Shown here: positions 10,971 to 29,575 of the stretch, piece by piece
Position numbering within the stretch: position 1 is the first letter of the stretch
Layout of the letters: each line of letters opens with the position of its first letter
DNA from: Pirellulaceae bacterium
Lineage (GTDB): Bacteria > Planctomycetota > Planctomycetia > Pirellulales > Pirellulaceae
Reading direction: 5' to 3'
NCBI GenBank assembly: GCA_022448645.1
Contig: JAKVBZ010000003.1
Span: 84,389 to 148,388, forward strand
Length of the DNA stretch: 64,000 bases
The notes under the pieces: model-generated
Database searches by the model: none
What the model was told of the DNA's origin: nothing
The model's input: the letters and a program-made list of their open reading frames with translations, nothing else
Made by a program: the position numbers and the translations under genes

Positions 10971-13900
10971 CTATGGCCGCCGTTGCAGGATGACTCGGTG
11001 ACGTTGGGGTGTCCAATCGGACCACAAGATCGTCACAGTGACTGTACCCAACCAACCCAATACGATGACCATGCCAAGCCAACTCGGAGTCAACCACAAC
11101 CACCAGACAATTCCAATAAGAACTCCGTGAAACGCTGGCCATCGTGAGATGTGCACGATCCAATGAGTCCACGGATCAACTTTCCAGCGTAAAATCGAAA
11201 GCACGCCAACCACCAATAAGCCCGCCAGCGACCAACGCACGGCTGTGCTCCTTGGTGACCGTACCGCCGCTTTGAACTCGACAGCTGGACGGTTTCCATG
11301 AAACATCATATGAACGGCTTGAACTCGATCTGCCTGGATGGTGCCGTCAGACCACATTCGCGACGACTCAATCTTCGAATCCCAGTCTGCTTCTGTTCCT
11401 AAGTGAGATGCAATCTGGAGTTGGCGCGAGTCCATCACCGTGAGTTCCTGTGCCAGGAAAGGGTCTTTGCTGGATCGACATGCCTTGCGAAGTGCGCCGT
11501 AGCGGCGAACCCATATGCGATACCAGTTATTCACATCTTCTGGAGTCTGTTCCCCGACAACCTGAGCTGACAGTTCCATCAATTCCGTCAAGGCGCGCAT
11601 GCGAAAAACATGCTGTCGAGACAACGATATCTTATACTCGGTGTCGTATGGCTGATCCACCGCATGAGAGGAGGGACCGGACACCGTCCATAAGGTTCTT
11701 TGCACATCGATGTCTTGGATGATTGGCGCCATGAAACGAGCAGATGTCGAATAGTAACGAGAGGCGAAACAGTCTCCCGTAAATTCAATCTCGATTCTTT
11801 GTGGAAGCCAAGCCGAGACGAGTGCCACGTCCCACTCCGAGTTGTCCACGCGCCGCATACGTGCAGGGAGTCCTCCGATACTTGCATGGATCAAACGGAG
11901 ATCGGCGGGCAATTGTATACGACAGCTTTCGATTCCCGTGGGCTCGAGATCGAAGCTGATGTGCCCCGAATATCGTCCCGTGTCGGCGGTTGGCAAATGT
12001 ACCTGTATGTCGGCTTGTTGGATCTGCGGAACACCTGTCTGGCCGCTGGCGGATCGCTGCTCAGCGCGGAAATCTGGGTCAATCGCGAGGAACGTCAAAT
12101 CGTGGGAACTTTCTGCTGGTTCGCCAGCAGGCAGCAATTCAGCAGGCAATTTTGCAGGTATCATCCACGGAGTATCCCACACGGTTGCCGCAGACGAATC
12201 GTTTTTCGGCAACACGACGTAGTGGGTGCACTCCGACGTGTTCACTAGATGGACATGCGGTACGTGGATGCGTTGGCCAGGTGCAAATGTCAGCGGAACA
12301 CGAAAGCTGAGGTGAAAACTTTTTCTGATCGTCTCTGGGAGCTGAAAACGAACTTGCTTACGAGCTCCTACTTCACCAGACGGCTCCTCCACAGCTACTA
12401 ACACTTCCGACTGGAAAGATTCTGGTTCGCCGCAAGGTGCTCCTAACTCGAAAACCAATTGATCGAAAAAACCATTTTCTAAAGCAATGTGATGATCAAT
12501 TTCGAGCCACCAGCGGCCGTTCTGTGTGGGGATCAATTTGCTGACCTGTACCGATCGTGAAAGCGGATCATTGGCTTTCACCGTGACATGCCCCATGGAT
12601 TGGCTGCGATCTAATTCCCATACACCAACGATTCGTTCCGCTTCGACTGCTAGTGCGTTTTTGGAAGGCAATTCCACCGGCATTTGGCCAATCGCACCTT
12701 CCCACTTTACGGAAACGTTGTTTCGCCGAGCCACAATAACTCGATCGGTTTCATAAGTCGATGCGTTCATGGACACGGATGGAAAGTCCATTGGTTCCCC
12801 TGCGCGCACGCGAGCTTCTCCATGCAAGGTGATGCGTCGCGGAAGGTCATTCCATTGACTGGGAAACACGTGGACTAGGCCCGGGCTAGGACGGGACCAG
12901 CGGGCGGCCACGGAGTGTTCCTTGTCGCTGATCAATATTTGCCGAATGACCACGTCGTCTGGCACTCGGATTGTGTGAATACACTGGGAAGGGTGGCTGT
13001 CCGAAAAATCCACATCGAGTCTCAACTCAATTCGATCTTCTCCATACACCAGGGTGAGTCGTTGCGATACTTGCGTTTCTGTGGGAATAGGACGGACAGT
13101 GATTACTGGCCACGCAAGTGTTGCGTCAGTTTGATCGTACACGCGAGGTGGTTCATTGAGCGTACCCCCCCAATCTCGCACAAATTCCGGTCCTGGAATC
13201 ATCGCATCCAGCTGCAACTCCGCCTCGGGAAATATCAAACTCGGATGCCCTGAAACTGCTAACCAGCAGCGAGTGGTGTTACCTTCCGTCTCCACACGTG
13301 GAAAAGGTATTTCGCCGATACCTCGCGTTTCTGTCACCAGAAAAGATAAGGGTACGGACACCACATCTTCTGTCGGTTCATCCAATTCCAATAGCACACG
13401 ATGAGCATCTTCCGTAGTGACCTCATGGATCTGTTGGACCGGCGAAGAATCCTCCAGAGGAAGTAGCCGTAAGCGAGGGTCGGTGATCAAAGATACGATG
13501 CGCAGCTTGCCATTCAGTACACGAAACGTCAGTTGGGCATCCAGGACGACGGACTGTGGGTTGATCCTAAGCCAGTAGAGCTGCTCCACATCCAGAGATC
13601 GGGAAGGGTTTCCCAGTTCTCCTCCCAACCAGCGCAACGTCAAACGTTCCCGATTACCAAATTCGCCTCGGAGTTGTTGATGCGTATCGTCTAGGTAAAC
13701 CATCCCGGTTGCCCCGATCCATTCCAAACCAGGTGGTTTGGGTGGCAAATCTACCAACACCTTGCTATTCGCTACTTTGGGAATGTCAAAAGACCATTCA
13801 CCAAAGGATTCTACTGTAGGACTTCTGAGTTGCAGTAATAGCTCCAGACGCACAGGTCCGGCATCGGTGACAAGCAACTCCAAGGCTTGACCATCAGCGG

Positions 13901-16900
13901 TCCAACGCACTGTGACCGGTCGCCCATCCAAGTGCGCCGTGTCGGCAACCAAGTCCATTTCCGATCGCCGAAAATTTAGGCGGATCCAACGCTGCGGGAC
14001 AAATGTTTCTAGGTCACACGTTACTTTGACTTGATCCATCCAAAGGCGCCGATCTGGCACCTCCCAATCCAGACGTGTCTGAAGCACCAGACTATAAACC
14101 ATCCAGTCCGGGAAGGTCCGCTGGGTCTGTTGTTCAAAAGCACGCAAGGCCTGAAATACGGGTTTCGGAACGTGATAGTAATCACCAACGACTTCTTTTT
14201 CAGCGTTCACTGGCACCAACACTTGGTACATCGGACTCCGTCTAGGACCAGTTTCCTCCACCGGCTCGACCGCAGCCAATCCCTCCGTGGGAAACAGTCC
14301 CACGAACATCCCCACCAGACTCACGGTGAAGGCTTGCCGCACCGTGGAAGGATCATTTGGGGAAACTGGATGTGGAGGTCGTTGGTGTAACCGTAGAGGT
14401 TGCAGGTATATCAGCGCCCCACCTAATAGCGTGCCCAGAAAAATGCCGCTGAAGATGGGAATGAGTGACGCGGGAACGACGAGTGCTCCGGTTGCACAGA
14501 TGGCCACCATCGCAATCCAAAGCCGCCTTGCAGATCGGCTCCACCACCATACGGCTACCGCCATTATGAACTGACACGCCCAGCCGACCGCTTTTAAGCG
14601 ACGTTGATCGTGGACCGCACATTGAGGAACCGTTTGGGCAGCTATTGGTAGTCCCATATTGTGAACTTGATTTCCATCCGAACTCCAGGAAACTGGCCAG
14701 TCTCTCATCCTGCTTCTCGAGCTCTCTGAGTCATTTCGTTTCCATGGAAAGAAGACAGAATGGCTGTCTTCACGCGCCCAACTTCCAAAGAACCGATGTC
14801 GCCAACTGTGCTGATGACTCGAAGCAGCTGATGGGCCAGGGACGGAAACCTCAAACCCTGGTGGCAAGGCAATTCGCCATTGCCCTTCCAGGCACGGCGC
14901 GTCGACTATGGGAATGGGCGCCTGCAACGAATCGAGTAATCGTAGTGGGTGTCGCTGATGCTCCAACTCGATTACCAGAGTGATCGTGTTGGAATCTTCC
15001 GGTAACTTTACGATCCATTGACCGTCGTCTCCTTTTGCTTGGTCCGAAACTGCTACGTTGTTCACAGTGGTATTTCGCAACGTAGTGCCGCTGGGAAGCA
15101 TCAATTGCAAATCACTTGAGGACCAATTCTCTAGTTCGTAGCGGACGCGATGGCGTGAAAAACCATCCGCCTCAAACCAAGACTCGACGTGGCAACGGCG
15201 TAACCATTGGCGAGTGCGGTAGGAATCCACTGCTACAGGAGAAATTGCCAGTGCGTGTGCGGAGGAGGCAATGGCGTGAGGCGCCGGGTCGAAGCGAAAG
15301 ACGGCGCGAAGCGTATTTCTCCCATCATCATCTTCAGAGAAATCAGCTGGGATTGCTTGCAAATGGCTGTTCTCGATGAGTACATCCGTTTTACCAGCAA
15401 CACGAATCTCGACCTTGCCCGACTGCCGTTCGGCGTTGGTCACTGACGGTAGAGAAATGTATGTGCCAGGTTTCCATTCTCTCGAGCGTATGGCCTGTAG
15501 CACAAAAGGAGTCCGGCGTGGTCGCCGCAAACCCAACTCCCAGGTTTCACCTGCTTCATCGGTGGCCGCCAAGCTACCTTCGTTAGGTTTTAGAAGCTGG
15601 GGGTGAATACTCGTCTCTGGTTCGCCGACAATCGCCCATTGCGTCGTAGATGGTAGCTCTTGTGAAAATCGAATTCTCAAACGGTCTACGTATTCCGGAA
15701 GAACGCGTATGTGGTGAATCTCCCTCAAGCTGGTATCTCCTGCCACCACCTCTGTCTGAATCTCTGTGGTAAATTGTGCCTCTTGATCTGATAACCATAC
15801 TGCCATCGGACTTGTGTCGAGTTGATCGGAGAACACGATCTCTTGTTCCTCGACATCGAGACGAGAAATCTGTTCTTCGCTCAATGCCGTCAGATCTGTG
15901 TGTACTTGCAAGATGCCTGCCGACTTCAGCACACGAGGGACAGCACAGCTTATCGAAACTAAGTGGTCCTCAATATCCACGTCTTCGAACTGGGCAAAGC
16001 ACAGTTCGTTTCTTCCTAATTTCTGTCCGCGAAGCAACGCTGGATGCTTTCCTGAAATGATCAGGCGCAGGTTTTTACCAACTGCAATTGGTTGCTTCAG
16101 TTGGATTCGAAGCTGTCCTGTAATAGCAGAGTGTTCCCAATCGGCGATCATTCCCGCAGGGTCTGCGTCTATCGAATCAATCGTCCATTGTCCAGGCACG
16201 AACGCCAGCAAACGGTACCGTTCTCCATTGAAACATCGAAAATCGACAAGAGTTCTTCCACTCAATGACGACTCGCCGATCTGAACGTTCGTTCCTTGGC
16301 GAACCTCAACACGATCTGGTCGAGTTGCCAACGTGACTGCCATCATGGGATTCGGACGGAATAACTCAAGTTGTAGTTGGTCTGCCTCATCGGGTAGGGA
16401 ACGCTGTAAAGGCGATGTGGGTCGACACCCGTCTACTCGAAAACCTACGATCTGCAGTGGTTTGTCGACGAGGATCTGGGCTGTGCCCTGCTGCCACAGC
16501 ATGTTGCGTGGACGGATCCATGGAATTACCAATTCAGGATCTGCGTTGGAAGAAAAAGCGGTTAGTTCGAGAACCATGTTGCGCCCTCGTACTGGTTCAT
16601 TGAATTCAATGACTAACAATTCGAGCGCGTTCTCTGCAACCTCCTCAATCGACCAGGACACGGGATGCCCATTCAAAGCAACACTCGTAACGTGAAGCTC
16701 ATTTGCCACGTCCATCTGTAATTGATTCAAGGCTTGAAAACGAACGTCCATATGGAGTTTAAATTGTTGCCGAATGCCGAATTTGTCGATCGTCATATGA
16801 CACGTCTGGCGCACCGCCACACGACGGTGTGGTTCCATGGCAAGCGATTCGGGCAAAATGTGCAACGTGGCCGTGTGCCTACCGCCCATCACAATCTGCC

Positions 16901-17720: not shown

Positions 17721-20700
17721 CTATAGCCGTGAATGTGATACGGATGAAGGATTCTTGGCGGTTACCGTAGTAACAACGCGACTGTCTTCACGAGGAAAAG
17801 GTTCTTGTTCTAGACCTGCTTTGAATCGTTCAATCGAAGACCCCGTTGTTCCATGAATGACTCCTTCCCGCCGCTTCCGCCAAATCATTATCCAATGACC
17901 CGTCCGTTGGACGAATATCACGACGACTCCCAACGCTACGGCTTGCCCCAACAAAACGGCTGTTTCTGGATACTGCTTTCCCCAGACAAGGATAGCGACG
18001 GCTGCCAGAAGAAGCACCAGGGGATGACGCAGCGCAGACGCCTGCAGCCAAAGGGCTCCACAAACCAGCGTGGCTCCAGCCACAACAAGTGTCATCATCA
18101 ACTGATTTGTGGTGCGTACTTCGACGACACCCACCTTAGACAAACGACTAAACAAATACTGACGTGTACCCTGTGTAGCGGGTCCTGGTTGCCGGAAATG
18201 TGTCTTCAGATTTTGTTCCATGCGCCGCGTTGCATCTGCCCGACGCGTCGCAAACAGATGAGACCAGGCCCAGTTAAACTCCGGGGTCAGACCGGACGGA
18301 TTCATTAACAAACATTCATGGCGTGGTAGGATCAGTTGCCAATAAGTTCGCCGCGTCCAGCTGCGCCCAGCAATATGCGGCAATTCAATGTGCAGGTTGC
18401 CCATCGTGGACCGGTGGACAGCTGTCTCGAACCAGATTTCGACCAAATGTTCATGTTCTTGTCCTCCTGGTGATCCTAAATCGATGGTGACTGTCGAACG
18501 ATTTAACGGAATTATTTTTGCCGATTGTCCATCAACGAGAATCTTCATTCTACGTTCATTCCCGTCCGTGCCGTCTGGCGTCGTATCAGGCGGTAGCCTT
18601 AGAGGCACTGACCCGCCAGAGGTTGTCAAGCGAAAGGTGGCTCGATCGTGCCGCCGGTCCGCAGTGAGCCAAGTTTGCAGCCATGCCAAATCAACGATTA
18701 CTGTTTCATCTTCCCGAAGTGTCGGGCGACTGACGTTGATGTTAACGTTGGATGATTCACCACTGTTTGTCCAGTGAACCACGTGCGCATCATCTACCGG
18801 TTCCACATCATGTCGAACCCAATCGGGATCTTCCACCACTGCCGTCAACGGTGATTTGGCGTGAACGACAAGCGTGTGTTTTACCGTGTTGGCCCCCGAG
18901 GGTAAGGCAAGCGGTATGGAGGATTTGTCTAGCGTACCTGGCGACAGTGCACCGGTCACCACGTCAAACTTCAATGTCAATACGACGTTTCCCGAACGTG
19001 AGCGTCGTAACGGCACCAGTACTCGGCGGTGTGATGGTTCATCCGCCTCAACCGCATGATCCACGATGCCCGTTCGAGTCCCGGTCGGATTGTTTCCTGT
19101 AGCGCGATTCGCCGTATCGATCGGTTCGACAGACTCTCCATCCACGAAAAACTCGATATTTGATTCTTCCGGCAAAGCAGCAGGAAGAAACAACGGCAAA
19201 TGTTCAATCGGCTCTAGCCGTATGTCGTACTCGAACCGTTGTTCGACCTGGACCAAATCGCTTTGGACAGAAACGGTTGAGTCAATGGTTGTGGCAATCG
19301 AGCCTTTTCGTACAGCGAACTCACCGACAAATATAGAGGGGGTTAACGTTGTCGTCTCGCGATAGAAGAACGGTTCTTGCTGGCGTTCTGGAAGTGGACC
19401 TGAGAATGATGACGATGTGTCCGCCGTCAACCCTTTCAGATCTTGAGTGTTTGGTGTCAACGCGATATTGTCATCAGGGACAACGGCCAGTCGCGCTACG
19501 CGTAAAGATTGACTGTGTGCACGTGGCAGGGTGACTTCGAATGGCTGCTCGGTACCTGTCGGTAAGTCACGAACAGCTCGAATGATCAATTGTAGATTAC
19601 CCGTCGAAGGCTGCTTCAAACGGACCCTCAGTGGGGATGTTTCCTCGAGTACCAATGCGGTTTTGTCTACTAATTCTTCTGGCTGAATATCTTCTACATC
19701 TTCAACCGTCCAACCTTGCATGTCTACGTCCAAAAAGGCTGCTTTGGCTCCTCGTACGGTAACGTCCAGACGAGTTTCCAGGCGCAACCGTTCTTGCTCC
19801 ACCAACAAAACATGAAACGGCTCAATGGTTTCTTTAGATTTCCGGGGTCGAATCTCCACCAACAGAGAACACGGTTGGCGAAAGTACTCGAAACTGGCAA
19901 TGACTGACTCTTGCTGTAAAGATTCGGGCAGAGCGTTGATCCTGCTGACATCTGTGGATCGCTCCTCGTTCCAACGCGGGTAGCTCTCAGAACCGGCGGC
20001 CAATGCCATGTATCCTGACTGTCGAAACGCACCCTCTACACGAAATCCTGCAACATCGATCAGTCTTTCTTGAGATTCTGTCTCCAGCACTCGGTTTGTC
20101 TTCAGCTGGATCTCTGGCGGCGACGAGGTCGGTCGGTCGAATTTTACTTCCACCATCTGTACATCATCTTGTTGCGACGGTTCCAGGCGGTCCTGGACGA
20201 CCTCGACCGTATACCCCGTCTGCTGAGACGGTAAGAACTGGGCGCCCTGAGGAAGTACCACGCGTACCTTGGAAACCGGATTGCCGAAACTTCTCAATTG
20301 CAGCCGTGCCGTCGATTCGATGTTTCCTCGCGCCACTACGTTGACCAAGATCGCACCTTTGACTTCTAGCAAAGAAGACTCAGTCTGAGACCTGACTTCT
20401 TCCTCACGCCAAGCGATCTGCAATTGGCCTTGTACCTCAGTCACATGGAGTCGGGTGCCACCATTGGGCGTGAGCTCTCTGGGTTCCAAAGTGATATCGT
20501 CTGCCACGGTCCCTACGACAATTCGATCCGGAATTTCTAAAGTCATGCGAGTCATGGATGACCTCACAAGGTTGAATGACAGTCGCGTCTCACTGCCAAT
20601 CTGTTCCGTGTGGTAAGCCAGCCGAAGTCGCAGGTTGGTTTCGTGGCCGATTTGGCCACGAAGGAAACAGATATGTCCCTCAGTAGCCGGATCAACCATG

Positions 20701-21209
20701 ACATATGCTGTGGCATCATCGCCCACATCGATGCGCTGTCTCAGATGTCCATCGTTCAACCCGAGCGGAATCCGTACCCAGTCATCCACATGCAGAACGA
20801 GCTTCACGTCTAGATCCAGCAGCACCCGATCCTCTTGCGCTACACCCTGAATCGTGATTTGTTCAATGAGATAGGGTGGTGGTTCATTTCGTCGTACGAT
20901 TCCATCCTGCTGGTCTAGAAGATTGACGAAATCCTCCAAAGGAATATTGAAGACAGGAACGAGTTCCCCATTCTTGTCTTTCAATAAAAATGCCCTGGGC
21001 CCCACCTCTCGTACTACCGGAACACGACTGGCAGCGGTCGAGTCGGTGGTGACGTCGGCAGTAGGAACAGATTTGTCGCTATTGGATGTTTGCCCTAGCG
21101 CAATACCAAAACACGCGCAGTAAAACGCGCATGTGGGTATCACTACCCAACCACGATAAATTGCAGTACGGGGTCGCAACATGAGTCGTGCTGCCGACAC
21201 AATCCTCAC
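17721..21209 (-). CDS. large secreted membrane-anchored protein, single module
   Basis: A 1,162-residue protein of unknown function, first gene of the two-gene unit. Residues ~1-40 hold a signal sequence (GWVVIPTCAFYCACFGIALG). The body is rich in beta strands with repeated patterns ending in LxLEIP- or VVLPxGAxF-like blocks, suggesting tandem immunoglobulin-like or jelly-roll domains. From ~1,032 there are three or four transmembrane helices, then a basic cytoplasmic tail of ~55 residues. The same plan recurs twice in the downstream protein. No catalytic motif is seen. Such pairs appear to be planctomycete-specific, judged from memory only. Confidence 0.75.
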   Translation of the reverse strand: MRIVSAARLMLRPRTAIYRGWVVIPTCAFYCACFGIALGQTSNSDKSVPTADVTTDSTAASRVPVVREVGPRAFLLKDKNGELVPVFNIPLEDFVNLLDQQDGIVRRNEPPPYLIEQITIQGVAQEDRVLLDLDVKLVLHVDDWVRIPLGLNDGHLRQRIDVGDDATAYVMVDPATEGHICFLRGQIGHETNLRLRLAYHTEQIGSETRLSFNLVRSSMTRMTLEIPDRIVVGTVADDITLEPRELTPNGGTRLHVTEVQGQLQIAWREEEVRSQTESSLLEVKGAILVNVVARGNIESTARLQLRSFGNPVSKVRVVLPQGAQFLPSQQTGYTVEVVQDRLEPSQQDDVQMVEVKFDRPTSSPPEIQLKTNRVLETESQERLIDVAGFRVEGAFRQSGYMALAAGSESYPRWNEERSTDVSRINALPESLQQESVIASFEYFRQPCSLLVEIRPRKSKETIEPFHVLLVEQERLRLETRLDVTVRGAKAAFLDVDMQGWTVEDVEDIQPEELVDKTALVLEETSPLRVRLKQPSTGNLQLIIRAVRDLPTGTEQPFEVTLPRAHSQSLRVARLAVVPDDNIALTPNTQDLKGLTADTSSSFSGPLPERQQEPFFYRETTTLTPSIFVGEFAVRKGSIATTIDSTVSVQSDLVQVEQRFEYDIRLEPIEHLPLFLPAALPEESNIEFFVDGESVEPIDTANRATGNNPTGTRTGIVDHAVEADEPSHRRVLVPLRRSRSGNVVLTLKFDVVTGALSPGTLDKSSIPLALPSGANTVKHTLVVHAKSPLTAVVEDPDWVRHDVEPVDDAHVVHWTNSGESSNVNINVSRPTLREDETVIVDLAWLQTWLTADRRHDRATFRLTTSGGSVPLRLPPDTTPDGTDGNERRMKILVDGQSAKIIPLNRSTVTIDLGSPGGQEHEHLVEIWFETAVHRSTMGNLHIELPHIAGRSWTRRTYWQLILPRHECLLMNPSGLTPEFNWAWSHLFATRRADATRRMEQNLKTHFRQPGPATQGTRQYLFSRLSKVGVVEVRTTNQLMMTLVVAGATLVCGALWLQASALRHPLVLLLAAVAILVWGKQYPETAVLLGQAVALGVVVIFVQRTGHWIMIWRKRREGVIHGTTGSSIERFKAGLEQEPFPREDSRVVTTVTAKNPSSVSHSRL

Positions 21210-22572: not shown

Positions 22573-23409
22573 ATGGGCCTTACGCTTTTCAGTCTAAGTG
22601 GCTCGTCGCGCCAAACGACGGAGATTCTCATCTTGTCACACACTACGGAGTCAACCACGACTTGGAAGGTCGATGGCCAGTGCGTCAGCAGTCAAACACA
22701 CGAGTTTTCCGGCACCATCGATTTAGAATCTCCGGAAAGGGGTATCTGCGTGGAACACGTAGCCGGCGGTGTGGCATTACAAGACTGTCGCCTGCTGCAA
22801 TTGAATTCTCTTCGAGATACCGATCGTTTGGGGCGCGTGGAGGAAACGTATACAAGAGGATCGGACGTCGTGGTCACCTACAGCCCAACCCCGTCGGAAA
22901 TTCGACTTCAGATCTATTGGCGGCGGCAACAGTTCCCCGTGGATGGGGGTACGGCGGTCGGCATACAAATGATTGTCTCGGTGCAAACCCATCTGTTGGA
23001 TGTTGATCCCTCGTTGTCCATCGTGAGTTCTTTGCAAGCTGCGGAGTCATGGTCGTATTCCGACAATCCGAATGCTCGATTGGAAACATGCCAGACTATC
23101 CATGCGAATTCGGCCGATGATGCCAGATCCGGATCCTTGTTGACACGCTTGTTTCGACTAGAATCTGCAGACGTAAGCTATGTCGAGATTGTCAGCGAGC
23201 AGGACTGCCATTCCATGTGCTTTGAACAGACCGTTGGTCCACCCACAATGATTCGTTGTGAAACCAAATTGTTCCATGAACGCTTAGAAAAAGGCGTCAT
23301 CCGACGTGCACGCATCTGGGGGATCTTTGTGCCTCGTGGCCAAGACATCTCAGCCATTCGTGATTGCCAAAAATACGTCGCGGCCAACCCCCTTCCGCTG
23401 ACGACATGA
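22573..23409 (+). CDS. hypothetical protein, 278 residues
   Basis: I do not recognise a family. The protein has no signal peptide or membrane helix. It has a beta-rich pattern (alternating hydrophobic residues in VVVTYSPTPSEIRLQIYW and VGIQMIVSVQTHL) and scattered cysteines. The frame is open over its full length with base use like its neighbours, so it is probably a real cytoplasmic protein. It sits about 80 bases after the strong terminator, so it must have its own promoter. Confidence 0.6.
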   Translation: MGLTLFSLSGSSRQTTEILILSHTTESTTTWKVDGQCVSSQTHEFSGTIDLESPERGICVEHVAGGVALQDCRLLQLNSLRDTDRLGRVEETYTRGSDVVVTYSPTPSEIRLQIYWRRQQFPVDGGTAVGIQMIVSVQTHLLDVDPSLSIVSSLQAAESWSYSDNPNARLETCQTIHANSADDARSGSLLTRLFRLESADVSYVEIVSEQDCHSMCFEQTVGPPTMIRCETKLFHERLEKGVIRRARIWGIFVPRGQDISAIRDCQKYVAANPLPLTT

Positions 23410-24833: not shown

Positions 24834-27800
24834 GTGGCCATATTGGACCGGGACAAGCTACTTGCGCTCTACCGCGCAATGGCGATGGCACAGCGGATCG
24901 ACGAAGTCGAGCTGCAGCTTACGAGCCGTGGAGAAGCCTTCTTTCATGTATCTGGAAGAGGGCACGAATCCACAGCCGCTCTGGCACTACACCTTACGCC
25001 TGCTGACTGGCTTCATTGTCACTATCGCGACAAAGCTCTGTTGTTGGCCCGTGGTGTTACGCCTGCCGACTTTATGAATGGCTTGTTGTACAACGCTTCT
25101 TCGAACTCCAGTGGCCGTCAGCTCTGCTCTCACTTGAGTGCACCTCATTTGAATGTCATTACGATGGCGGTTCCCGTAGGAAATAATGCGTTACAAGCCG
25201 TCGGCGTAGCCGAAGCTATTCAGCATCGGCCGGGAAACCCTTTGGTACTTTGTGCTGTCGGCGACGGAGCGACCCAAGAAGGCGAATTTTTAGAAGCCGT
25301 GTCTGAGGCGGCTCGACGTCGCTTACCCGTATTATTCCTAATCGAAGACAATCAATGGGCCATCTCGACCCGTACGTCGGGTCAAACGTTTTTCTCGCCT
25401 CCGCAAGGCAGCGCCTCAGCCTTCATGGGCGTTGAAATTCAGAGTTTGGATGGACGCGACGTCATCAGTTCGTATGAACGATTCGGGCAAATCGTGGATC
25501 AGCTGCGAAAAGATCGACAACCGGTGTTGGCGGTCATGCAGGTTGAGCGCTTGACCAGCCATACGAATGCCGATGACCAACGTATTTACCGCAGCGAAGA
25601 CGAGATCCAACGCGCAACGCATTGCGGAGATCCAGTTCATCATCTGAAAACGTATTTGTTAGCGAACTCGATCTCGTCCGCAACACTGGATGCCATCGAT
25701 GAAGAAATTCACGGGATCGTATCCGCGGCCGAATTGCAGGCTTTACAACACGACAATCCCGAGCCCGAAAACTCAGCTAAGATCTCCTTGCCCATTGAGT
25801 TGACGCACCCTCAACGGGAAAACCGCGGTCGTGACGAAGGGCCTCGTTTGGTCATGAAAGATGCCATGCGTGAAGTCCTGCGCAGCAAACTGGCCAGCGA
25901 CGACCGCGTGACGCTTTATGGTGAAGATATCGAGGACCCCAAAGGAGATGTCTTCGGCGTTACCAAGGGGCTCAGCACTGAGTTTCCCGGACGAGTCAGT
26001 AATTCACCTTTGTCTGAATCGACCATCGTGGGTAGCGCAGTGGGACGAGCCATAGCGGGTGAACGTCCTGTGGCTTTCCTGCAGTTTGCCGACTTCTTGC
26101 CTCTGGCTTACAACCAAATCCATTCCGAACTTGGTAGCATTTTCTGGCGCTCTGCCGGAGGTTTTCAGGCTCCCGTCATTGTGATGATTCCCTGTGGCGG
26201 TTATCGGCCAGGTCTGGGACCGTTCCATTCTCAGACCCTTGAAGCCACCATGGCACATACACCGGGTGTCGATGTCTTCATGCCATCGACGGCCACCGAT
26301 GCAGCAGGGATGCTCAACGCCGCATTCGCTTCCGGACGACCTACACTGTTTTTCTATCCCAAAAGCCGTTTGAACGACCCGGAACAGACAGCCCCCTCGA
26401 ATGTTACAGATTTGTTGACACCGATTGGTGTGGCACGTCGAGTCCGCTCGGGGCGCGATATTGCGCTGGTAGCCTGGGGGAATACAGTTAGGCTCTGCGA
26501 ACAAACGGCTGAAACCTTGGAACAGGTCGGCGTGGAGACCGAGATCCTCGATTTGCGTTCGATTTCACCATGGGACGAACATGCAGTACTTTCGTCCGTA
26601 GAGAAGACAGCGCGACTGATCGTCGTCCACGAAGATAGCCATAGTTGCGGTGTTGGCGCAGAAATCGTAGCGACTGTAGCAGAAAAAACTCGCATGCCAG
26701 TTGCCATGCGACGCGTGACACGGCCCGATACGCTGGTACCCTGCAATTTCACTAACCATGTGGAAGCTTTGCCGTCTTATCGCCGTGTGTTGGAAACGGC
26801 CTGTGAGCTGTTGGACGTTGAAATCAAGTGGGAAGCTCCTGCCAAAACGACGGCTGGCTCCCTGCCGGTCGAAGCCGTCGGTTCAGGGCCCTCGGACGAA
26901 ACCGTCACCGTGGTCGAATTTCACGTCCAACCAGGGGATGAGGTGGCTCGTGGAGATTTGTTAGCTACCCTGGAAGCGACCAAGAGTGTCTTTGACTTGA
27001 CGGCACCCGCTGCCGGAATCGTGGAAACACTTGCCGCCAGCCAAGGTGATACGATTGCCGTGGGACAACCGTTGTTATTCTTAGAATGCGCTGAATCCAT
27101 GACTCGCCGGCAATCGGTTCTCAATGAGAATCCCGGCACACCGCATTTGAAACGCACTTCCCAAACAAATGTCGTCTCCATGCCGCGACGAGAAAGCGTG
27201 CGACGCGATTATGCTGTAGGCATGTCTCTCGTTTCTACCGTAACGGGCAGCCGACAAGTCTCCAACGAAGAATTGGCATCACTCGGTGGCCAGATGAGCG
27301 CCGAAGATATCCTCCGGCGAACAGGAATTGAATCACGCCACTGGGCTCAGCCTGGAGAAACTGCCGTCAGTATGGCTGTACAGGCTTGCTGGCAGCTGCT
27401 CGACCAGGAACAACTGATTGTGGACGATCTGGATGCCGTCATCTGTGCTACCACCAGCCCCACGATGATGACTCCTTCGATGGCTTGCCAAGTCCTCAGT
27501 GGGCTTGTTGACGGCCGTACGCCTCCCATGCTGCAGGCCTATGATATTAATGCCGCCTGCTCTGGCTACCTTTATACATTGCAATCTGCTTACGATTACT
27601 TGCAAAGCAGGCCTCGTGGTCGTGTGTTGGTCGTGACTTCCGAATTGTTATCACCATTGCTCGACATGGAAGACGTCGACACCGCCATCATTTTTGGCGA
27701 CGCAGCTTCTGCGACACTGCTATACGGGGAAGAACACCTTTCTCGAGCAGCCGCCCTAGTGCGTCGGCCTGATTTATCTGCCAAGGGCGAGAATGGTACG

Positions 27801-28163
27801 GTGTTGTCCGTTCCGTTTCGTGACCACGGATTCATCCAAATGCAGGGCCGGCGAGTTTTCAGCGAAGCAGTCCGTACGATGATCTCCAGCCTAAGCCGAG
27901 TCTGTGAAGCACAAGAAATCTCACAATCCGATTTGCGAATCGTGGTGCCGCATCAGGCGAATGGCCGGATCATCGATGCTATGCAAAATCGAGTCGATGT
28001 GGATGTTTTCAGCAATATCCGGCATCACGGTAATACTTCTTCTACTAGCATCCCGCTGTGTCTGGTCGAAGTCTTACCGACTCTAGAGAAAAATGACCGC
28101 GTCGCGCTGTGTGCGTTCGGTGGCGGGTTTACATTTGGTGCGGGAATTCTTGAAGCTGCCTAG
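24834..28163 (+). CDS. fused 2-oxoacid dehydrogenase E1 alpha/beta, lipoyl domain and KAS III
   Basis: A 1,109-residue four-part protein with a GTG start. Residues ~1-320: E1 alpha of branched-chain 2-oxoacid dehydrogenase, with the thiamine-diphosphate motif GDGATQEGEF (~143). Residues ~338-680: E1 beta (LYGEDIE, SNSPLSEST, PCGGYRPGLGPFHSQ). Residues ~690-757: a biotinyl/lipoyl-type domain with the modifiable lysine in LEATKS (K717). Residues ~785-1109: ketoacyl-ACP synthase III with the full triad Cys909 (AACSGY), His1040 (PHQANGR) and Asn1067 (HGNTSS). No E2 acyltransferase core or E3 is present. I infer that it makes branched acyl primers and condenses them with malonyl-ACP to start iso-fatty acids. 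It converges on an NtrC-type regulator 8 bases away. Confidence 0.88.
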   Translation: MAILDRDKLLALYRAMAMAQRIDEVELQLTSRGEAFFHVSGRGHESTAALALHLTPADWLHCHYRDKALLLARGVTPADFMNGLLYNASSNSSGRQLCSHLSAPHLNVITMAVPVGNNALQAVGVAEAIQHRPGNPLVLCAVGDGATQEGEFLEAVSEAARRRLPVLFLIEDNQWAISTRTSGQTFFSPPQGSASAFMGVEIQSLDGRDVISSYERFGQIVDQLRKDRQPVLAVMQVERLTSHTNADDQRIYRSEDEIQRATHCGDPVHHLKTYLLANSISSATLDAIDEEIHGIVSAAELQALQHDNPEPENSAKISLPIELTHPQRENRGRDEGPRLVMKDAMREVLRSKLASDDRVTLYGEDIEDPKGDVFGVTKGLSTEFPGRVSNSPLSESTIVGSAVGRAIAGERPVAFLQFADFLPLAYNQIHSELGSIFWRSAGGFQAPVIVMIPCGGYRPGLGPFHSQTLEATMAHTPGVDVFMPSTATDAAGMLNAAFASGRPTLFFYPKSRLNDPEQTAPSNVTDLLTPIGVARRVRSGRDIALVAWGNTVRLCEQTAETLEQVGVETEILDLRSISPWDEHAVLSSVEKTARLIVVHEDSHSCGVGAEIVATVAEKTRMPVAMRRVTRPDTLVPCNFTNHVEALPSYRRVLETACELLDVEIKWEAPAKTTAGSLPVEAVGSGPSDETVTVVEFHVQPGDEVARGDLLATLEATKSVFDLTAPAAGIVETLAASQGDTIAVGQPLLFLECAESMTRRQSVLNENPGTPHLKRTSQTNVVSMPRRESVRRDYAVGMSLVSTVTGSRQVSNEELASLGGQMSAEDILRRTGIESRHWAQPGETAVSMAVQACWQLLDQEQLIVDDLDAVICATTSPTMMTPSMACQVLSGLVDGRTPPMLQAYDINAACSGYLYTLQSAYDYLQSRPRGRVLVVTSELLSPLLDMEDVDTAIIFGDAASATLLYGEEHLSRAAALVRRPDLSAKGENGTVLSVPFRDHGFIQMQGRRVFSEAVRTMISSLSRVCEAQEISQSDLRIVVPHQANGRIIDAMQNRVDVDVFSNIRHHGNTSSTSIPLCLVEVLPTLEKNDRVALCAFGGGFTFGAGILEAA

Positions 28164-28171
28164 TTGGCGAA

Positions 28172-29575
28172 TTACACGTTTTCTGCAGCACTCATCGGAA
28201 AACGCATTCCCCGTTGCTCTTCCAGCCCTAGCCGTTTCATTTTCTTGTATAGTGTCGTCCGGTTGATTCCGAGTATGTCAGCCGTCGTATTGCGGTTCCA
28301 ATTATTCTGTTCTAATACTGCCAAGATGATTTGGCGTTCCGGACCTGCCAACGCTTCTTTTAAAGTCCTTCCCATGACCGGTTTGGCGACCACAGGTGTG
28401 GTGGAAACCAATTCGCTCGGCAAATCGTCCAATTCGACTTCATGTCCCTTGCCTAAAAGTACAGCGCGTTCCACCACGTTTTGGAGCTCGCGAACATTGC
28501 CAGGCCATGGGTGCCGCTGTAACGCGGCCATGCTTTCGTCTGAAAAGCGATGGACCTGCTTGCCCGTTTCCTCACACACCGATTGTAAAAAGTGTTCGGC
28601 CAACAACGGGATGTCGGAAATGCGCTCTCGCATGGGGGGCAATTCGATGTTGATGACATTCACTCGGTAGAATAGATCCTGACGAAAGCGGCCTTCGCTG
28701 ACGGCGTGATTCAAGTTTTCGTTCGTAGCCAGGATGACTCGCGAGTCGACGTTGAAGGTCTTGGTCCCACCGACTTGTTCGAATGCAAATTCTTGCAACA
28801 CACGTAATAGTTTCACTTGCATGCCGGCCGATGCTGTTCCGATTTCGTCGAGAAAGATCGTGCCACCATCCGCTTGCATGAACTTGCCAACTTTGTCGGA
28901 CGTGGCACCCGTGAATGCTCCTGCAGTATGACCGAAAAGTTCACTTTCCAATAGTGTCTCAGGTAATGCCCCACAGGCGACTTCCACAAACGGTTGTTCA
29001 CTGCGTGAGCTGGTTCGGTGAATGGCCCTTGCCACCAGTGATTTTCCCGTACCACTTTCGCCCGTAATGAGCACCGTGGCCTTGGTGTCCGCGATACTGT
29101 CGATCATTTCGAACACCCGCTGCATGCGGTGGTCCCGGCCGACGATGTTCGACATGCCAAAGCGAATGTCGAGCTGTGCCTTGAGAGTCTTGTTTTCTTC
29201 AATGACTTGTTGTTGAGACAGCGCTCGATTGATAGCCACCAAAAGCTCTTCATCGATCAATGGTTTGGTTAACAGATCAAAAGCTCCAGCACGGATGGCC
29301 TCAATCGCCGTATCCACGGTGCCGTAGCCCGTAATCAAAACAACCGGTACGTCTGGGCAATGTTTACGACAATGAGACAGGATGTCAAAACCGTCACCAT
29401 CTTCCAGGCGAATATCGGCCAACACTAAGTCGAAGTTCGTTTGAGATAACCGTTGAATGGCCGTCTCGCAACTTGTTGCCTCGTTGACATCAAAGCCCTG
29501 TTCACGCAACCAACCGGCCATGGATTCCAGCACGTGGCGGTCGTCGTCGATCAGTAATAACGAGCGGTTTTTCAT
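28172..29575 (-). CDS. NtrC-family sigma-54-dependent response regulator
   Basis: A 467-residue transcription activator. The receiver (1-120) has a complete site: D10-D12, phosphoacceptor D54, T82 and K104. The AAA+ domain has Walker A GESGTGKS (172-179) and the sigma-54 contact loop GAFTGA (219-224). A Fis-type helix-turn-helix ends the protein (NRNTTADILGINRTTLYKKM). No histidine kinase is next to it, so it is an orphan here. It must act at sigma-54 promoters; none was convincingly found in this window. Confidence 0.93.
   Translation of the reverse strand: MKNRSLLLIDDDRHVLESMAGWLREQGFDVNEATSCETAIQRLSQTNFDLVLADIRLEDGDGFDILSHCRKHCPDVPVVLITGYGTVDTAIEAIRAGAFDLLTKPLIDEELLVAINRALSQQQVIEENKTLKAQLDIRFGMSNIVGRDHRMQRVFEMIDSIADTKATVLITGESGTGKSLVARAIHRTSSRSEQPFVEVACGALPETLLESELFGHTAGAFTGATSDKVGKFMQADGGTIFLDEIGTASAGMQVKLLRVLQEFAFEQVGGTKTFNVDSRVILATNENLNHAVSEGRFRQDLFYRVNVINIELPPMRERISDIPLLAEHFLQSVCEETGKQVHRFSDESMAALQRHPWPGNVRELQNVVERAVLLGKGHEVELDDLPSELVSTTPVVAKPVMGRTLKEALAGPERQIILAVLEQNNWNRNTTADILGINRTTLYKKMKRLGLEEQRGMRFPMSAAENV

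Follow-up and report, generated by a model that had tools for sequence, protein, structure and literature searches.

In the branched-chain 2-oxo acid dehydrogenase complex, E1 alpha and E1 beta act together with E2 and E3, and E2 normally takes the acyl group from the lipoyl arm and passes it to coenzyme A (CoA). In the textbook account of branched fatty-acid priming, E2 makes free acyl-CoA and the condensing enzyme FabH, a 3-ketoacyl-acyl carrier protein (ACP) synthase III (KAS III), takes up that acyl-CoA. The gene described here lies at positions 24834-28163 on the forward strand of a 64,000-nucleotide stretch of DNA from a Pirellulaceae bacterium (assembly GCA_022448645.1, contig JAKVBZ010000003.1, positions 84,389 to 148,388; the window) and encodes E1 alpha, E1 beta, a lipoyl domain and KAS III in one chain. 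The reading favoured here with moderate confidence, from comparison of sequences, is that the protein is a CoA-independent primer for fatty-acid (or polyketide-like) synthesis, in which the lipoyl arm would acylate the KAS III cysteine directly and a 2-oxo acid would be converted into a 3-oxoacyl-ACP, KAS III having probably evolved in the place of E2.

The branched-chain complex resembles the fusion in its E1 sequence, catalytic residues and lipoyl domain, and the closest solved E1 is the Thermus branched-chain E1. The fusion differs in being a single chain with KAS III attached and with no E2 catalytic or subunit-binding domain reported, and because the E2 core is absent it is not a full member of this complex. 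With FabH and other KAS III enzymes (NF006829, TIGR00747) the fusion shares the fold, the Cys-His-Asn triad, Arg249 and Asn247; it differs in that its KAS III is joined to E1 and lipoyl modules, has Trp32 and Arg151 replaced, forms a separate clade, and scores above the cut-off of NF006829 (260.6 bits; cut-off 249) and below that of TIGR00747 (225.3 bits; cut-off 292.1). Since it lacks the CoA-adenine feature of FabH, the fusion counts as an atypical member of that family. One-chain E1 alpha-E1 beta-lipoyl-E2 proteins have the same order, a similar length, sister E1 modules and lipoyl domains that align with that of the fusion, but they end in the E2 acyltransferase core (PF00198) and the fusion ends in KAS III.

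The QncN/QncL/QncM, NapB/NapD and SclQ1-4 cassettes, together with the pepteridine E1 and E2-T-C proteins, are like the fusion in that, according to the sources, an E1-type thiamine enzyme and a lipoyl group serve a non-CoA acceptor. There the acceptor is a carrier protein reached through an E2-like acyltransferase or an E2-like fusion within a secondary-metabolite cluster, whereas the fusion has KAS III and is a solitary gene. One source states that such a transfer was shown for the quinocarcin enzymes and proposes it for scleric acid (PMC6335953), and another proposes it for the E1-made acyl group of pepteridine, citing naphthyridinomycin, pristinamycin and N-acyl-amides (PMC5384830). The fusion has no E2-like domain, and no neighbours of the Qnc/Nap/Scl type were found among the scanned genes of the window or in the neighbour sample from other loci. 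A first-pass annotation of the window had regarded the bypass of CoA as new in itself, which in the light of these precedents was overstated. The CoA-free loading of a carrier from lipoyl has already been described for natural-product pathways; KAS III as the fused acceptor would be the new element. A literature search, limited to titles and the beginnings of abstracts and with subscription papers mostly outside its scope, found no description of an E1-lipoyl-KAS III fusion.

Domain Organization and Catalytic Residues

A Pfam scan of the 1109-residue protein gave the order E1 alpha, E1 beta, lipoyl domain and KAS III in a single gene (Table 1) and reported neither PF00198 nor an E2-type subunit-binding domain. 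E1 alpha/beta with the thiamine diphosphate motif and catalytic Glu and His residues were recognized from domains and alignments, and a KAS III fold with the Cys-His-Asn triad from alignments and a fold search (VIA list), which had good coverage only at residues 336-662 and 791-1109 and barely covered the E1 alpha and lipoyl parts. The same domain set is found in the 120 listed of 1728 relatives from a protein search (58-100% identity, with the protein of the window itself heading the list). In a scan of GTDB genomes, E1 through KAS III are present in all of the best 80 of 544 loci, two of which (L048, L055) are clipped by contig ends, and each of the 80 has an open frame of at least 892 residues. 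The first-pass annotation had described four intact domains with their key residues visible, no E2 core, and KAS III directly following the lipoyl domain, and it had called for a search for this order elsewhere; its description agrees with the domain scan and with the invariant residues, and the order recurs throughout the relatives just named.

Conservation was counted over 68 aligned sequences drawn from different phyla. Tyr64, Arg65, His243, Glu395, His465, Lys717, Cys909, His1040, Arg1045 and Asn1067 are unchanged in all 68. In pyruvate dehydrogenase E1, E59-beta functions in thiamine activation, and H128-beta and H271-alpha in the reductive acylation of lipoate (PMC2663715). Since the residues matching these three are invariant, the E1 half of the fusion appears able to acylate the lipoyl arm; the equation of His243 with H271-alpha, and hence with a role in lipoyl acylation, is our own reading of the alignment. 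The lipoyl motif is DKA in 31 of the 68 sequences, TKS in 25 and another xKA or xKS in 12, and the biotin-type MKM motif occurs in none of them. The top match of the lipoyl domain is to E2 lipoyl domains, with a weaker match to biotinyl domains. At the other end of the protein, the glycine-rich terminus of KAS III is retained in all 14 sequences of alignment A1.

Probable Replacement of E2 by KAS III

Five genomes in the phylum of G001 encode a one-chain protein of similar length that has E1 alpha, E1 beta and lipoyl modules. The C-terminal module of these sister chains is PF00198 in the three scanned with Pfam, and it occupies exactly the slot that KAS III holds in the fusion. L129 has the same C-terminal sequence pattern as the PF00198-bearing chains, while the frame of L128 (genome G130) becomes arginine-rich after the E1 part and is probably frameshifted in the assembly. 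In L127, L129, L130 and L131 (genomes G191, G096, G161 and G076) one polypeptide corresponds to a 2-oxo acid dehydrogenase minus E3. These four carry DHRPFNG at the position of the E2 motif, which is usually DHRxxDG, and the lipoyl domains of the sister chains are alignable with that of the fusion. A protein search listed 1403 relatives; among the 120 shown, 114 have PF00198 on our reading and two are KAS III fusions of Gloeobacterales, and the sources that are named include Planctomycetota, Verrucomicrobiota and a protist, Anaeramoeba ignava.

The first E1-module tree has 45 rows; 27 of them, the E1-lipoyl-E2 chains together with the fusions, make up a single group (99/97), and the 18 E1 alpha-beta chains stand apart from it. 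A wider tree of 53 rows places one E1-lipoyl-E2 clade outside (100/99) and a second E1-lipoyl-E2 set nearest to the fusions (group support 93/86), with the KAS III fusions, including those of Gloeobacterales, as one inner group (100/97); these trees are rooted at the midpoint, the outer clade contains one E1 alpha-beta chain without E2, and a partial protein that lacks the E2 part makes up one of the 23 E1-lipoyl-E2 rows. Because E2 fills the slot in the sister chains and the E1 trees nest the fusions among E1-lipoyl-E2 chains, the E2 catalytic domain of a one-chain E1-lipoyl-E2 ancestor appears to have given way to KAS III, on a single occasion.

CoA-Adenine Site of the KAS III Domain

In E. 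coli FabH the adenine of CoA is sandwiched by Trp32 and Arg151 (PMC4606726). These positions were compared between 80 fusion KAS III domains and 29 separate KAS III proteins (26 from the same genomes and three solved structures). Trp at position 32 is found in none of the 80 fusions (Asp in 63, Ala in 8, Glu in 5, the rest other residues) and in 24 of the 29 separate enzymes; Arg at position 151 is likewise found in no fusion (Phe in 39, Pro in 22, Gln in 7, the rest other residues) and in 23 of the separate enzymes, so that Trp32 is missing in five and Arg151 in six of the latter. By comparison, C112, H244, N247 and R249 are retained in all 80 fusions and N274 in 79, with one gap. The KAS III tree puts the fusion domains in a clade separate from the KAS III of the carriers' own cells.

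Table 1. Features of the fusion gene and its product, in window coordinates.
Feature	Position	Strand	Description
Entire fusion gene	24834..28163	+	1109 residues, then stop
E1 alpha domain	24870..25766	+	PF00676, residues 13-311; GDGATQEG = 143-150
His243	25560..25562	+	Aligns with the histidine of the phosphate loop in human and Thermus E1 alpha
E1 beta domains	25854..26753	+	PF02779, residues 341-514; PF02780, residues 532-640
Glu395	26016..26018	+	Aligned with E59-beta (thiamine diphosphate activation)
His465	26226..26228	+	Aligned with H128-beta (reductive acylation of lipoate)
Lipoyl domain	26898..27077	+	PF00364, residues 689-748
Lys717	26982..26984	+	Predicted lipoyl attachment site, EATKS
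Linker between lipoyl domain and KAS III	27165..27200	+	Residues 778-789; low-confidence stretch, probably flexible
KAS III domain	27210..28160	+	Residues 793-1109
Asp825	27306..27308	+	Occupies Trp32 position of E. coli FabH (CoA adenine stacking)
Thr880	27471..27473	+	Occupies Phe87 position of E. coli FabH
Cys909	27558..27560	+	KAS III nucleophile
Val948	27675..27677	+	Occupies Arg151 position of E. coli FabH (CoA adenine stacking)
His1040	27951..27953	+	KAS III triad
Asn1067	28032..28034	+	KAS III triad

Proposed Mechanism and Alternatives

In the proposed mechanism, the thiamine diphosphate-dependent E1 would decarboxylate a 2-oxo acid, probably a branched-chain one, and reductively acylate the lipoyl arm on Lys717. 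The short, probably flexible linker would let the arm swing over to KAS III, whose Cys909 would take the acyl group by thioester exchange, substituting for both E2 and CoA. KAS III would condense it with malonyl-ACP to a 3-oxoacyl-ACP destined for fatty-acid synthesis, while the ordinary E3 of the cell, acting in trans, would reoxidise the lipoyl arm. A path from lipoyl arm to Cys909 to 3-oxoacyl-ACP is the most economical one because KAS III stands in the E2 slot, the adenine site is lost and the condensation residues are kept. The first-pass annotation had suggested such a CoA-free hand-over, and it holds as the best reading, given E2 in the same slot of the sister chains, the lost CoA-adenine contacts and the DKA motif in 31 of 68 lipoyl domains.

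Starting from 20 of the 80 loci, 20 genomes that carry the fusion were examined for its partners. The lipoyl synthase LipA scores above its cut-off in all 20 and lipoamide dehydrogenase (E3) above its curated cut-off in 17. A separate KAS III is encoded in 19, where the KAS III of the fusion is an extra copy and not the only one of the cell; a second CoA-fed FabH is therefore less needed, and the fusion would act as an accessory primer beside the normal FabH. In six carriers (G001, G009, G011, G014, G016 and G020) E1_dh has no other strong match than the fusion, except that three of them also have a frame of 952-1025 residues, which by its size looks like 2-oxoglutarate dehydrogenase.

Several observations weigh against a CoA-independent primer of branched acids. 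The fusion KAS III domains without Gloeobacterales are one clade (100/100), and the 80 losses of Trp32 and Arg151 are therefore one ancestral event, not 80. Moreover, separate KAS III proteins have 75 conserved columns, of which the fusion has lost 19, and the probability that both Trp32 and Arg151 fall among them by chance is about 0.06. Other CoA contacts persist, such as Arg36 in 71 of the 80. Both Gloeobacterales fusions (P0297, P0298) retain Trp32, with Arg151 gone there too, and a loss of Trp32 in every fusion is accordingly rejected. The KAS III tree joins these two to the other fusions weakly (56/89), so that they may have acquired their KAS III separately. All 20 carriers encode an E2 catalytic domain, which could act in trans. 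E1 beta scores 198 bits with the Thermus branched-chain E1 against 192 and 179 with chains named pyruvate dehydrogenase; to our knowledge, iso-fatty acids are not major lipids of Pirellulales or Devosia. Finally, no neighbourhood indicates the product, and no fatty-acid-synthesis gene recurs across phyla among the sampled neighbours.

The alternative that survives best, and that we regard as possible though clearly the lesser prospect, keeps the proposed route and changes only the acyl group: pyruvate or another 2-oxo acid would yield a straight-chain or unusual primer. It overlaps with the branched-chain version and does not exclude it. Besides the narrow E1 beta margin, it can draw on E1 alpha, whose closest NCBIfam model is pyruvate dehydrogenase (194 of 411 bits, far under the cut-off), and on a short-chain dehydrogenase next to the Spirochaetota fusions that is closest to mycolate reductase models, below their cut-off. 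On the other side, E1 alpha scores 129 and 107 bits with solved branched-chain E1 structures (82 with that of Pseudomonas) and 71 and 67 with pyruvate E1. Phe87 of E. coli FabH, which we take to be an acyl-pocket residue, is replaced by Thr in 76 of the 80 fusions, a change that should widen the pocket; this is a weak argument, as Phe stands there in only 13 of the 29 separate enzymes. Because E1 alpha favours branched-chain E1 and E1 beta is less decisive, a branched 2-oxo acid is the favoured but not settled substrate, and of all the steps proposed, the formation of iso-fatty acids as a bulk product has the least support.

It is rather unlikely that E1 and the lipoyl domain form acyl-CoA jointly with a separate E2 acting in trans, with the attached KAS III using acyl-CoA formed nearby and the fusion serving only proximity. 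The E2 domains in all 20 carriers, the conservation of Asn247 and Arg249 in all 80 fusions and of Arg36 in most, and the Trp32 of the two Gloeobacterales members speak for such a scheme. It fits poorly, however, with the disappearance of the adenine-stacking Trp32 and Arg151 from 80 of 80 domains, with the sister chains having E2 where the fusion has KAS III, and with the lack of any reported E2-type subunit-binding domain in the fusion protein. More doubtful still is a KAS III-like domain that works as an acyltransferase from the lipoyl arm to ACP or another acceptor, like the E2-like domain of the Qnc/Scl cassettes. KAS III-like acyltransferases such as CerJ do exist. Lipoyl-to-ACP transfer has precedent in natural-product pathways (PMC6335953, PMC5384830), but the fusion keeps the whole Cys-His-Asn triad for decarboxylative condensation in 68 of 68 sequences, along with the glycine-rich KAS III end in alignment A1. 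A sequencing or assembly error that joined separate genes, which the first-pass annotation had named as a possible undoing of its proposal, can be dismissed, because the 120 listed relatives and the 80 best loci share the join across several phyla, and some of these sequences (L032, P0017, P0052, P0085) lie on contigs that are complete or very long.

If the preferred reading of direct loading of Cys909 by the lipoyl arm is true, a lipoyl arm can feed a condensing enzyme directly, a connection of 2-oxo acid dehydrogenases with fatty-acid synthesis of which the literature search gave no account. The fusion would also be a clear case of the replacement of the acyl-acceptor module in a swinging-arm machine, with living relatives on either side, and a self-contained primer enzyme could help to make branched acids in laboratory hosts.

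Distribution of the Fusion

The named organisms among the 120 listed protein relatives are planctomycetes, for example Rosistilla carotiformis and Lignipirellula cremea. The best 80 loci, mostly in metagenome bins, extend over Planctomycetota, Spirochaetota, Verrucomicrobiota (Kiritimatiellae, Lentisphaerae) and Sumerlaeota, and include a Xenococcus bin, Devosia insulae and a deltaproteobacterial bin; two additional fusions belong to Gloeobacterales, one to the cyanobacterium Anthocerotibacter panamensis and one to a relative. In counts that include the centre genome, full-length fusions occur in 2 of 199 sampled genomes of the phylum of G001, 5 of 146 of the order of G004 and 5 of 198 of the phylum of G007, and fusions in 20 of 194 of the phylum of G020 (two partial); the single match among 386 genomes of the phylum of G006 is the centre genome itself. 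The fusion is patchily distributed, an accessory gene.

A search for split versions gave 5063 matches, and among the best 120 many are short and several lie on short contigs or are labelled partial. Extra domains in the long frames of G637 and G564 were considered and rejected, since by eye the added stretch resembles a non-coding extension of the open frame.

Gene Neighbourhood

The fusion gene is solitary in the window. Its near neighbours encode an inositol phosphatase, a sigma-factor-like fragment, an NtrC-type regulator and a LuxR-type regulator. The gene for the NtrC-type regulator (28172-29575, reverse strand) is convergent with the fusion, as it is in the close relative L001 (13443-14846, reverse strand). 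A 1162-residue protein (17721-21209, reverse strand) has no Pfam match at E 0.001, and a 278-residue open frame (22573-23409, forward strand) has no Pfam match either.

The other loci extend over at most 10 kb per side, clipped by contig ends, and their neighbours were identified from samples. Neighbour families present in most loci are each confined to one clade. The clusters that cross groups comprise 16 genes for two-component sensors and regulators in 11 loci, 9 ABC-transporter genes in 6 loci and 6 AhpC/TSA redoxin genes in 6 loci; they are taken as background, being common families that often lie kilobases away. With only clade-limited or common families among the sampled neighbours, an operon or gene-cluster explanation was rejected. 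AhpC/TSA-type redoxin genes stand about 10 kb or less from the fusion in unrelated groups (L072, 8024-8584; L068, 4628-5176; L042, L061, L070, L076; L015, 7403-9802), and this proximity is probably background too, though the lipoyl arm is a thiol cofactor.

At the Devosia locus, 10 neighbouring open reading frames were scanned and five have no Pfam match; codon usage suggests that several are antisense shadow frames. A gene adjoining the Xenococcus fusion (Pfam ELFV) had been taken as a leucine dehydrogenase in support of a branched substrate, a reading that was withdrawn because the closest NCBIfam model is glutamate dehydrogenase, below cut-off. The Spirochaetota loci have an aconitase gene in divergent orientation to the fusion, with the short-chain dehydrogenase mentioned above downstream (L034, 7140-10013 and 13565-14395; L033, L035, L040, L042, L070 and L074 alike); this dehydrogenase could reduce the 3-oxo product. 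In L015 the gene directly after the fusion (13328-13954) codes for two microcompartment shell domains (PF00936, from a scan of this locus only), and members of its gene cluster are present in eight loci of one clade (L015, L020, L023, L025, L026, L028, L030 and L031).

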